Assembly: GCF_001570585.1 (NCBI RefSeq)
Contig: NZ_BBXF01000001.1
Span: 551,691-615,690 of the forward strand
Origin: Herbidospora daliensis
Lineage (GTDB): Bacteria > Actinomycetota > Actinomycetes > Streptosporangiales > Streptosporangiaceae
DNA length: 64,000 bases
Direction of reading: 5' to 3'
Shown: piece after piece, positions 44,445-48,177 of the stretch
How positions within the stretch are numbered: the first letter of the stretch is position 1
Layout: each line of letters opens with the position of its first letter
Translations under genes and position numbers: made by a program
Notes under the pieces: generated by a model
Told to the model about the DNA's origin: nothing
Databases searched by the model: none
What the model saw: the letters and a program-made list of their open reading frames with translations, nothing else

Positions 44445-44620
44445 AGCCTGAGGCCCAGTCCCGCAGCGGGCCCACGTCGCCCCGAGGTGGTCGAGGCATA
44501 CCTGGCGTGGCCGGCCCCGTCGGCGATGCCGAGCCTGCCGCGCGGCGTCGATCGCGCCTCTCCGGCGGTCGGTGGGCCGACGGCTCTTCGGCCAGGCTTC
44601 ATTGGGTGCTCGTGGGCGCG

Positions 44621-44641
44621 TCACCAGCGCTTTCCTGGTGA
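44621..44641 (+). terminator. Weak terminator-like hairpin
   Basis: TCACCAG (44621-44627) pairs with CTGGTGA (44635-44641), 7-bp loop, then TCTCTTTA. Lies 180 bp after the pentapeptide gene in a 283-bp gap that otherwise shows no gene. Confidence 0.4.
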
Positions 44642-44727
44642 TCTCTTTAATCGGGTGCTTGTGCCCTTGATCCAACTGGGCGCAGCGGGGGCGTCATCCC
44701 CGTGTCATCACATGACCCGAGGTAGCA

Positions 44728-47700
44728 ATGAAATCGATGGTCTCGAACCATCCACGTACGAAGCTTCTGCTGGTGGCGCTTGCCGCGGCGACGACGTTGG
44801 CGGTCTCACCTGCCGCCGTGTACGCGGACGGCACCGCGCCGGTCACCGGCGGCATCCCCCTGATCGACACGACCGAGCAGATCGGGCCGGGGATCGCGTT
44901 ACAGCACGTCAAGGCGCTCGACCAGAAGGGCTGGTACGACGCGCGGTTCCTCACCGTCGACCTGTCGAACACGGCCGTCAGCACCGATCTGCTGACCGCC
45001 GGACCGGTCGCGGCCGGAGGGCCGCTCAGCGTCGCCGCCAACAAGGTGGGGGCCGTCGCGGGGGTCAACGGGGAGTTCTTCGACATCGGCAACTCCAACG
45101 CGGCGCTCGGCGGCGAGGTCCTCGACGGGCAGCTCAGGAAGACCGCTGACATCGGCGGCCGCCAGCACGTCGGCGTCAGCAAGGACGGCGTCGCCCAGCT
45201 GGTGAACCTCATGGTGAACGCGGCCGCGAACTTCTCGGGCGCGGACCACAAGGTGCTGTCCGTCAACGCCGCGAACGGCGGCGGGGTCCCGGCTGACGGG
45301 CTGATCGCGTTCACCTCGGCGTGGGGTGAGTACAGCCGCAACCGCGGCATGACCGGCGTGGGCAACGACCAGATCGCCGAGGTGCTGGTCCGGAACGGGT
45401 CGGTCGTCTCTGTCACGCCGAACGGTCCTGCGGGTTCTGGGGCGATTCCGGACGACGGCTTCGTGCTCGTCGGGCGTGGCGCCGCGGCGACCGCGATTCG
45501 CGCGTTGCAGCCCGGCAACCCGGTGACGCTCAGCTACGCGCTCGCCGACGAGGCCGCCAAGACGATGAAGTTCGCGCTCGGCCACGGCGGCACCGTCGTC
45601 ACCGGCGGCCAGGTCGTGCCCGGCCTCGACACCTCGATCGCCCCGCGCACCGCGCTCGGCTTCAAGGACGGCGGCCGCACGCTCGTGCTCGCCACCTGGG
45701 ACGGGCCGGGCGGCACCGGCAAGGGCGGCGTCGGGATCGACAAGGAGGCGCGTGACCTCGTCGCGATGGGCGTGCAGACCGCGGTCAACCTCGACGGCGG
45801 CGGCTCGACCACGATGGTCGCCCGCGAGCTCGGCGAGGACGCCGCGACCGTGCGCAACGTGCCGTCCGACGGGCGGGAGCGCAACGACCCGAACGGCGTG
45901 GGGGTGTTCGTCGCCAAGGGCGACGGCAAGCTGCACGAGCTGCTGATCAAGCCCGCGGCCGGGCTGAAGGTCTTCCCGGGGCTGCGTCTTCCGCTCCTCG
46001 CGGCGGGCGTCGACGACCACCAGACGCCGGTCGGCGTCGACGCCGGTTCCGTGCAGTGGTCTGCTCGCGGAGCGTCCGTCGAGGGCGGGACGCTGGTGGC
46101 GCCGGACAAGCCGAACGGGCGGATCAGCGTCGACGCCCGCGTGGGCGCCGTGGTCGCGAAGCCCGTGAAGGTCACCGTTCTCGACCCGGTCAGCGCGGTC
46201 GAGTTGTCGTCCAAGAGGCTTTCCATCGCCGAGGCGACGCCCGCCAACGCGGTGACCGTCTCCGTGACCGGGCGCAACGCGCAGGGGTACGCGGCCCCGA
46301 TCGACCCCCGGGACCTCACGCTCGACTACGACCACGCCGTCGTCGACATCCAGCCGGTGGACGGCAAGCTGAAGATCACCCCCCTCACGGCCGCGGGCAC
46401 CATTCTCACGGTCTCGGTCGGCGGCGCGTCGGTCCAGCTGCCGATCACGGTCGGCGTCGAGACCAAGACGGTCTACGACTTCGACGACGACGTGCTGGCC
46501 CGCTGGCGCAACAACAGCACTGCGGCCACGACGTTCTCGGCCGACCCCGACGGGCTGCGGATCGACTTCAACGCCATGCGCAACGTGGGCATCACCGCCG
46601 CGTCGGCGGCCCGGCGCATCGCCGTGCCCGGCCAGCCGCTGCGGGTGCGCGTGCGGATCAAGTCGAGCATCGACGTGCCGAACGGCCTGACGTACCTGGC
46701 CTACACCGACGCGAACGGCAAGGGCACCGGCGTCTACGGCACCGCCCTGACCGCGAGCGGCGACTGGCAGAACGCGACGTTCACGATGCCGGCGAACACG
46801 CCGTTCCCGATCTCGATCTCGGGCTTCCAGGGCATCAACACGAGCGTCCCGCAGCAGAAGGCGGGCACGTTCGTCCTGGACCGCATCGAGGCCGACGTCC
46901 CGACGTCGATCGACCTGCCCGCCCAGCCCGACCTGCGGCCCGACCCGCTCATCTCCGACGACGGCTCGCTGCCCGAGGGCGCCGGCACGTGGCGGTTCGC
47001 CACCCTGTCGGACGTGCAGTTCACCGCCGACAACCCGGCGCTGACCCAGGTCGCGACCGCCGCCGTCAGGCGGATCCGCGCGACCAAGCCGGACCTGGTC
47101 GTCCTCAACGGTGACATCACCGACCGCGGCCTGCCGCAGGACCTCGCGCTCGCCCGCCAGGTGCTCACCGACGCCGGGTGCGACCTCGTCCCGGTCGGCC
47201 AGGAGCCGCCGGCGGACAGCACGCCCAACCCGGACGCCGGCTCGATCCCGTGTTACTACGTGCCGGGCAACCACGAGTCCTACGGTCTCAACAACGTCCA
47301 GTCCGACCTGACGAACTTCATCAAGGAGTTCGGGCAGCCGTACCGGACGTTCGACCACAAGGGCACCCGGTTCATCCTGCTCGCCAGCTCGATCGGGTCG
47401 CTGCGCTCGACGGCCTGGGACCAGCTCCCCATGCTGCAGAAGGCGCTCGGGGACGCCGAGAAGGACACCTCGGTGCACAACGTCGTCGTGTTCGCCCACC
47501 ACCCGGTGGACGACCCCGCCGAGACCGATTCCAGCCAGCTCGGCGACCGCGACGAGGTCGCGCTGATCGAGAACCTGCTGACCGACTTCCGCGACACCAC
47601 GGGCAAGGGCACCGCGATGGTCGGCTCCCACGCCCAGATCGCCGACGTCCACCGCCTCGAAGGCGTGCCGTACATGGTGCTGCCGTCGTCGGGCAAGGAC

Positions 47701-48177
47701 CCCTACGGCACGCCCGACCGGGGCGGCTTCACCGGATGGGTCAACTGGTCGGTCGACTCGCGGCGCGACGCCGACAAGCAGTGGCTCGAGGCCGAGGTGC
47801 GCGCCTTCGCGCAGTCCATCACGCTCACCACCCCCGACACGCTCAAGGTGGACGAGACGGCGCAGCTCTCGGGCAGCATCGTCCAGCCGTCGGGCGTGTC
47901 GGCGGGCACCCGCGTGGTGCCGCTGCGCTACCCGATGTCGGTCGACTGGAGCGGCTCGTCCACCCTGGCGATCGGCAGCGGGCAGGACGCCGTCGACACG
48001 GCCGTCCGCAAGGGCCGGGTCGCGATCCTCGACCCGCGCACCCGGACGCTCACCGCGCTGAACCCCGGCACGGTGACCGTGACGGTGACGAACGACTCGA
48101 TGCGGGCGTACACCGACGACAGTTCGCTGGCGCCGATCACGACGTCGAAGACCATCCAGGTCCTGCCCGGCAAGTGA
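44728..48177 (+). CDS. Secreted phosphodiester glycosidase-metallophosphoesterase fusion
   Basis: 1149 residues. Signal peptide about 1-34. NAGPA-type phosphodiester glycosidase domain about 60-400 (NLDGGGSTTMVAREL, Asp356). Then beta-sandwich domains, about 400-750, one lectin-like (VYDFDDDVLARWRNN). Calcineurin-type phosphoesterase about 755-1010: Asp762, Asp796 (NGDITDRG), Asn848-His849 (GNHE), His924 (AHHP), His968. Two usual His ligands are Gln764 (SDVQ) and Gln970 (SHAQ). C-terminal Ig-like domain 1040-1149. Likely trims phosphate-linked sugars in the envelope or medium, as inference. GAGGTAG lies before ATG 44728. Confidence 0.9.
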   Translation: MKSMVSNHPRTKLLLVALAAATTLAVSPAAVYADGTAPVTGGIPLIDTTEQIGPGIALQHVKALDQKGWYDARFLTVDLSNTAVSTDLLTAGPVAAGGPLSVAANKVGAVAGVNGEFFDIGNSNAALGGEVLDGQLRKTADIGGRQHVGVSKDGVAQLVNLMVNAAANFSGADHKVLSVNAANGGGVPADGLIAFTSAWGEYSRNRGMTGVGNDQIAEVLVRNGSVVSVTPNGPAGSGAIPDDGFVLVGRGAAATAIRALQPGNPVTLSYALADEAAKTMKFALGHGGTVVTGGQVVPGLDTSIAPRTALGFKDGGRTLVLATWDGPGGTGKGGVGIDKEARDLVAMGVQTAVNLDGGGSTTMVARELGEDAATVRNVPSDGRERNDPNGVGVFVAKGDGKLHELLIKPAAGLKVFPGLRLPLLAAGVDDHQTPVGVDAGSVQWSARGASVEGGTLVAPDKPNGRISVDARVGAVVAKPVKVTVLDPVSAVELSSKRLSIAEATPANAVTVSVTGRNAQGYAAPIDPRDLTLDYDHAVVDIQPVDGKLKITPLTAAGTILTVSVGGASVQLPITVGVETKTVYDFDDDVLARWRNNSTAATTFSADPDGLRIDFNAMRNVGITAASAARRIAVPGQPLRVRVRIKSSIDVPNGLTYLAYTDANGKGTGVYGTALTASGDWQNATFTMPANTPFPISISGFQGINTSVPQQKAGTFVLDRIEADVPTSIDLPAQPDLRPDPLISDDGSLPEGAGTWRFATLSDVQFTADNPALTQVATAAVRRIRATKPDLVVLNGDITDRGLPQDLALARQVLTDAGCDLVPVGQEPPADSTPNPDAGSIPCYYVPGNHESYGLNNVQSDLTNFIKEFGQPYRTFDHKGTRFILLASSIGSLRSTAWDQLPMLQKALGDAEKDTSVHNVVVFAHHPVDDPAETDSSQLGDRDEVALIENLLTDFRDTTGKGTAMVGSHAQIADVHRLEGVPYMVLPSSGKDPYGTPDRGGFTGWVNWSVDSRRDADKQWLEAEVRAFAQSITLTTPDTLKVDETAQLSGSIVQPSGVSAGTRVVPLRYPMSVDWSGSSTLAIGSGQDAVDTAVRKGRVAILDPRTRTLTALNPGTVTVTVTNDSMRAYTDDSSLAPITTSKTIQVLPGK

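Follow-up and report, generated by a model that had tools for sequence, protein, structure and literature searches.

In a 64,000-nucleotide stretch (the window) of the 8.5-Mb genome of Herbidospora daliensis (contig NZ_BBXF01000001.1, positions 551,691 to 615,690), we found a gene whose 1149-residue product joins a phosphodiester glycosidase of the NAGPA family to a calcineurin-like metallophosphoesterase (MPE). The MPE domain carries glutamine at two positions, 764 and 970, that are usually held by histidine and that both belong to metal site 1. The conserved motifs give good support for an altered metal-1 site and, judged from alignments of relatives, the Gln/Gln state is a clade trait confined to metal site 1. 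An earlier note on this DNA had described Gln764 at the histidine of DxH and Gln970 at the last histidine of GHxH, with the other ligands kept, and the motif alignment bears this out; the fusion, which it had also proposed, agrees with the Pfam matches to NAGPA and Metallophos.

Metal-site residues of the phosphoesterase

The five MPE motifs of the window protein read SDVQF, NGD, GNHE, AHHP, and GSHAQ. Under the known superfamily scheme, which we take to apply here, metal site 1 would comprise Asp762, Gln764, Asp796, and Gln970, and neither histidine of the canonical site is present. Metal site 2 would be canonical, with Asp796, Asn848, His924, and His968, together with His849 of the GNH motif. 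The scheme is stated for the equivalents of positions 764 and 848 in a docking model (PMC4334965). If both glutamines bind, metal site 1 would have oxygen donors only. The genome itself has 17 Metallophos matches, and among the 14 for which motifs are shown, glutamine at both places occurs in the window gene only; two others (L066 and L074) are candidates for D-x-Q, with GHDH as the last motif.

A fold search of the MPE model against the PDB gave 30 matches with E values no higher than 0.001, which by title are all MPE superfamily members, and leans towards an MPE superfamily fold, the mean predicted local distance difference test score (pLDDT) of the model being only 58.2. The best matches were Rv0805 (2hyo, 2hy1), SMPDL3A, SMPDL3B, Lmo2642, Mre11, E. 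coli 5'-nucleotidase, and LpxH. By sequence, the best solved proteins to the MPE profile were the 'Phosphohydrolase' entries 2zo9 (E 1.4e-8) and 2dxl, Rv0805, and Mre11 proteins. The low confidence of the model leaves some room for a misalignment, in which the true ligands lie elsewhere (e.g., His925 or His975) and no swap has occurred. We regard this as very improbable, given that relatives with SDLH...GHAH align in the same columns, that the PF00149 match covers the first four motifs, and that many relatives have valine at the position of His925.

Relatives and residue states

When the whole protein was used as the query against genome sets, hits with E up to 1e-3 occurred in 83 of 150 genomes of the same family, those to NAGPA alone included. 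With the MPE profile, hits were obtained in 3 of 396 genomes drawn from the phylum (E up to 1e-20, own genome included) and, at E up to 1e-15, in 69/345 genomes of another family, 2/66 of a class, and 49/394 of the own class. A scan of named species added 28 loci; its queries were peptides of the window protein, and it thus reaches close relatives only. A scan of viral contigs returned 30 pattern matches with no relative among them. Residue states were read for those matches that were built into loci. From 169 rows with an MPE hit, 10 partial or unrelated ones were removed, and the remaining 159 gave 140 letter-distinct MPE domains, namely 120 from the genome-set searches, 19 from named species, and the window protein; many of these are close kin, so that the counts below are not independent.

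The residues at positions 764/970 are Gln/Gly in 76 domains, Gln/Gln in 38, His/Arg in 13, His/His in 10, Gln/His in one, and Gln/Ser in one, and one further domain has lost every ligand but Asp762. Position 764 is thus glutamine in 116 of the 140 domains and histidine in 23, and the glutamines are not peculiar to the window sequence; the earlier note had named the opposite outcome, glutamine in this sequence alone, as fatal to its idea. Asp762 is kept throughout (140/140), while Asp796, Asn848, His849, His924, and His968 are each kept in 139. The residue after 764 is phenylalanine in all 116 Gln764 domains and in none of the 23 His764 domains. Positions 764 and 970 are not strictly paired, because the Gln/Gly, Gln/His, Gln/Ser, and His/Arg states exist; on this comparison they vary separately, with no coupled swap. 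Of the paired change suggested earlier, the double glutamine is found across a whole clade, but co-change does not extend through the family.

Both glutamines are invariant in an 18-row alignment of Gln/Gln proteins, and a 24-row one shows no variation at His849 or at any of the seven ligand positions. The Gln/Gln proteins of named species come from Herbidospora, Nonomuraea, Planotetraspora, Streptomyces, Actinacidiphila, Rugosimonospora, and Kribbella. Five full-length Herbidospora proteins, at 89-91% identity, are the closest relatives from named species; a sixth Herbidospora locus (L059) contains a decayed copy. A Gln/Gly-type copy (L157), annotated as 'phosphodiester glycosidase family protein', lies on the linear plasmid pF1D35B of Streptomyces clavuligerus, with a gene for a SigB/SigF/SigG-type sigma factor upstream and one for a SpoIIE-type phosphatase downstream.

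Order of the changes

In an MPE tree of 77 rows built without the ligand columns, each state that has several rows comes out as a single group, although the Gln/Gly group is weakly supported (85/81, and 72/76 in a careful tree of 24 rows). In a quick 77-row tree, the Gln/Ser protein falls inside the Gln/Gln clade, and the ligand-lost protein (L189) sits on a long branch next to two Gln/Gly proteins. These groupings and placements suggest that Gln970 and Gly970 are probably separate changes.

A single order of changes was rejected as an outcome, as the trees disagree on the placement of the His/His proteins. They lie outside one Gln group in the quick tree (support 91), whereas they group with Gln/Gln and Gln/His in the MPE-only 77-row tree (92/85) and with Gln/Gln in the careful 24-row tree (90/90). 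Both 77-row trees were flagged by the program for long branches. A constraint keeping all Gln764 rows together was not rejected (approximately unbiased test, p 0.137, 24-row set), and glutamine may have replaced His764 once, although the trees differ on this.

Comparison with known enzymes

Gln764 has a counterpart in human ADPRibase-Mn, which is not known to be fused to a NAGPA domain. This enzyme is dinuclear and Mn-dependent and resembles the window protein in its D-x-Q first motif with the glutamine modelled on metal 1, while only the first of the two glutamines is described in the available parts of the papers (PMC4334965, PMC3407115). Members of that family share the motif D[V/I]Q, and the docking model, for which the authors use the term 'hypothetical', places the carbonyl of Gln27 on metal 1 (PMC4334965). 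Gln27 is a functional choice in this enzyme, since its replacement by histidine reduces kcat/Km by a factor of 11 with ADP-ribose or CDP-choline as the substrate, 13 with 2',3'-cAMP, and 27 with cyclic ADP-ribose (PMC4334965).

Gln970 has its counterpart in E. coli 5'-nucleotidase (UshA), also a match of the fold search, where Gln254 is among the metal-coordinating residues at the last-motif ligand and the insect and human enzymes have histidine (PMC2843633). Unlike the window protein, UshA keeps the histidine of the first motif (Asp38 and His40 in fly numbering are shared) (PMC2843633), and its accessory domain differs from those of the window protein. By this analogy, the window protein unites two glutamines that are each known singly from a two-metal enzyme. 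Literature searches, by titles and within open-licence PMC papers, found no report on a double-glutamine centre.

The NAGPA-phosphoesterase fusion as such is already known. Work on ShfP (YvnB) of Bacillus subtilis describes a wide radiation of cell-surface calcineurin-like phosphoesterases, NAGPA fusions included, and substitutions of phosphoesterase residues impair the function of ShfP and glycerol release (PMC11488536). ShfP is secreted, as the window protein with its putative signal peptide recognised by eye probably is, and has its calcineurin-like domain amid Ig-like (immunoglobulin-like) domains, which are also predicted in the window protein; it differs in its lamin-tail domain and in the histidines at both last-motif positions (H1114 and H1116, which were mutated) as against Gln970 (PMC11488536). 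The Pfam matches place the window protein among such fusions of a calcineurin-like to a glycosidase domain, and the parts of the ShfP paper that were available do not mention a Gln/Gln centre (PMC11488536).

The Class III phosphodiesterases 2zo9/2dxl and Rv0805 are nearest to the window MPE domain among solved sequences and in modelled fold. They have the canonical histidine at both metal-1 positions, and 2zo9/2dxl is presumably GpdQ. The Gly970 type recalls mammalian MPPED2 (Gly252), a residue that was named in no text found by our literature search. A histidine distinguishes MPPED1 from MPPED2 (PMC10547211).

Proposed mechanism and alternatives

We propose that the protein is a secreted two-domain enzyme for extracellular sugar-phosphate material, with a two-metal MPE domain, an all-oxygen metal-1 site, and a shifted metal preference, and we give this proposal an even chance of being correct. 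The NAGPA domain would release the sugar from a sugar-1-phosphodiester, after which the phosphoesterase would attack either the phosphate thus exposed or a diester next to it; such a two-step reaction fits the fusion architecture. Two metals would still be used, with the metal-1 glutamines binding through their side-chain oxygens. Because the metal-1 donors would all be oxygen, the preference may have moved from Zn or Fe to hard metals such as Mn or Mg; binding of metal 1 may be weak or may depend on the presence of substrate. A two-metal centre seems likeliest because each glutamine alone has a counterpart in a two-metal enzyme (Gln27 of ADPRibase-Mn and Gln254 of E. coli 5'-nucleotidase). 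The earlier note had inferred a one-metal or different-metal enzyme: changed metal use is plausible, as the change runs through the clade and touches metal site 1 alone, but glutamine does not imply a single metal, since glutamine at either position, taken singly, is described as a ligand in a dimetal enzyme (PMC4334965, PMC2843633).

Several findings weigh against this proposal. Position 970 is Gly, Gln, Arg, His, or Ser across the family and is possibly not a needed ligand. L189 (genome G1070) has lost all MPE ligands but Asp762, the GNH histidine included, with its frame open and its NAGPA motifs intact (NLDGGGST, PRTAIG, and VNASYF). The AlphaFold models are of low confidence, both for the MPE domain alone (mean pLDDT 58.2, predicted template modelling score (pTM) 0.66) and for the full-length protein (mean pLDDT 56.6, pTM 0.39), in which the NAGPA region is largely of very low confidence, and for this reason the side-chain geometry of both was left unused. 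Finally, no neighbour family stands at a consistent place across genera in the 28 named loci and the window.

The variation at position 970 beside metal-2 ligands that are fixed in 139/140 domains, and the fact that Gly970 is the commonest state among the domains read (76/140), would also suit an enzyme that uses metal 2 only or binds metal 1 weakly, with Gln, Gly, and Ser as steps in losing an unneeded metal-1 site. We consider such an enzyme possible but rather unlikely, as Asp762, a ligand of metal 1 only, persists even in L189, as position 764 is restricted to glutamine or histidine in 139/140 domains, and as each glutamine has a dimetal precedent.

L189 also bears on a further alternative, namely that in this clade the MPE domain is for the most part not catalytic, binding metal, phosphate, or polymer on behalf of the NAGPA domain. 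The NAGPA residue Asn354 (of NLDGGGS) points in the same direction, being absent in 23/23 His764 proteins, which thus have a non-canonical NAGPA motif, and present in 102 of the 112 Gln764 proteins with a residue there. This contrast amounts to two independent pairs without statistical support and was rejected as proof. In addition, L155, a full-length second copy, pairs a Gln/Gln MPE domain with a damaged NAGPA motif (ILDSGGS), and the invariance of His849 and the seven ligand positions in the 24-row alignment speaks for catalysis. The MPE domain is held by selection in the Gln/Gln clade, because the ratio of non-synonymous to synonymous substitution rates (dN/dS) in this region is 0.15-0.46 in 8/8 comparisons; this resembles the NAGPA region (0.14-0.37), and maxima are higher in the Ig-like (0.21-0.48), beta-rich (0.39-0.58), and C-terminal (0.15-0.73) regions. 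The eight comparisons, all with the window gene, came from 13 relatives prepared and used a simple method that ignores codon bias. Overall, we judge a non-catalytic MPE domain unlikely. The Asn354 contrast suggests that either half may gain importance as the other loses it; with two independent pairs, this is a lead and not a result.

As a separate observation, the distant fusions L116-L126, L146, and L190 have arginine at the last GHxH position, and their NAGPA domains are without Asn354 and Arg307 in 13/13.

A bolder reading, which we consider less likely than not, is that the states of the family form a natural series along which one of the two metal sites is altered and dismantled (His/His, His/Arg, Gln/His, Gln/Gln, Gln/Ser, Gln/Gly, and near-complete loss). 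The Gln lineages mostly keep the NAGPA motifs, and the Gln/Gln centre would be asymmetric, its metal-1 site having only oxygen donors and an unfamiliar metal preference. Matched proteins of natural origin, with the metal-2 set fixed and the two metal-1 histidine positions varying, make up a series in which to ask what the second metal does in calcineurin-like phosphoesterases.

Gene and protein features

The features of the gene and its upstream region are collected in Table 1. Both Pfam matches lie above the curated cut-offs: PF09992 (NAGPA) covers residues 219-394 with 92.1 bits (cut-off 25), and PF00149 (Metallophos) residues 757-942 with 40 bits (cut-off 21.5). The C-terminal Big_2 match (E 0.012, 16 bits) is under its cut-off of 22.8. 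Pfam gave no match in region 401-575 or in the beta-rich domain 586-735, and an NCBIfam search of the protein returned no families. In the full-length model, region 401-575 has pLDDT values of 69-90 per 10-residue block, and the confidence of the beta-rich domain is low to middling; in L189, the beta-rich stretch is duplicated. The window protein is probably secreted, as its N-terminus suggests.

The NLDGGGS and PRT motifs, to which catalytic roles are ascribed in the NAGPA family, are common to the window NAGPA domain and solved members. Human NAGPA (the uncovering enzyme) and the bacterial DUF2233 protein 3ohg align over the NLDGGGS and PRT/RTA motifs; unlike the window protein, no phosphoesterase was matched in their chains. 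Remnants of a second copy lie elsewhere in the genome (C7:149021-149641; L062:6025-6633, minus strand), in pieces corresponding to residues 557-622, 1008-1072, and 1073-1141 whose frames are not all shared.

Table 1. Features of the fusion gene and its upstream region (window coordinates)
Feature	Position	Strand	Remarks
Block of about 140 nt immediately preceding the start codon, conserved from genus to genus	44588..44727	+	
Three PHO-box-like units, 11-nt spacing, about -131	44597..44625	+	Score 16/21; mononucleotide-shuffle p 0.024
NAGPA-phosphoesterase fusion gene (P0001), 1149 aa	44728..48177	+	Open reading frame across 1149 codons
Putative Sec signal peptide, residues 1-34	44728..44829	+	Translation by eye: basic N-terminus, hydrophobic stretch
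NAGPA phosphodiester-glycosidase region, about residues 40-400	44845..45927	+	Pfam match 219-394
NAGPA motif NLDGGGST, residues 354-361	45787..45810	+	
Putative Ig-like beta region, about residues 401-575	45928..46452	+	Strand-rich
Beta-rich domain, residues 586-735	46483..46932	+	Perhaps carbohydrate-binding
Calcineurin-like phosphoesterase (MPE) domain, about residues 740-1010	46945..47757	+	Pfam, fold model
Asp762, metal-1 ligand position (motif 1)	47011..47013	+	
Gln764 (CAG), metal-1 ligand position in place of the DxH His	47017..47019	+	
Asp796, bridging ligand position	47113..47115	+	
Asn848, metal-2 ligand position, with the adjacent catalytic His849 (GNHE)	47269..47274	+	
His924, metal-2 ligand position	47497..47499	+	
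His968, metal-2 ligand position	47629..47631	+	
Gln970 (CAG), metal-1 ligand position in place of the last GHxH His	47635..47637	+	
C-terminal Ig-like (Big_2-like) region, residues 1031-1149	47818..48174	+	Sub-threshold Big_2 match

Upstream region, neighbours, and spread

PHO-box-like repeats were sought with the degenerate letters of the PHO-box consensus. The box has the core GTTCACC and is built of 11-nt units (PMC4415409). A three-unit scan covered 23 of 29 regions (the window and the 28 named loci), six being left out where the match did not start at residue 1. The best run of three PHO-like 11-nt units lies at -126 to -137 in 22/23 upstream regions, with a mononucleotide-shuffle p of at most 0.05 in 20/23; the exceptions are L035, L051, and L059 (the decayed gene), and the scanned regions are related and hence not independent. 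In the six remaining regions, a two-unit scan has its best place at -129 in L046 and L047 and elsewhere in L048, L052, L057, and L061. The two-unit scan was weak overall: of 93 upstream regions, with start codons guessed by script, 16 reached a p of 0.05 or lower. If the upstream repeats are real PHO boxes, the protein may serve soil actinomycetes in scavenging phosphate from sugar-phosphate polymers.

A regulatory RNA in the upstream region was also considered and rejected as proven, since the window region folds no better than shuffles (z -0.68) and the covariation term is small (-0.16 over 21 rows); an Rfam scan of the upstream region gave no matches. A short hairpin at 44687-44702 (GGGG...CCCC) precedes the ribosome site; compensated changes affect a few of its pairs across 21 rows.

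Two neighbour clusters reached three or more genera in the 28 named loci and the window, at inconsistent places. Protein identity between genera is about 80%, and these genera presumably belong to different orders. Because no neighbours are consistent and identity across orders is this high, the pattern fits horizontal spread of the single gene together with its promoter.

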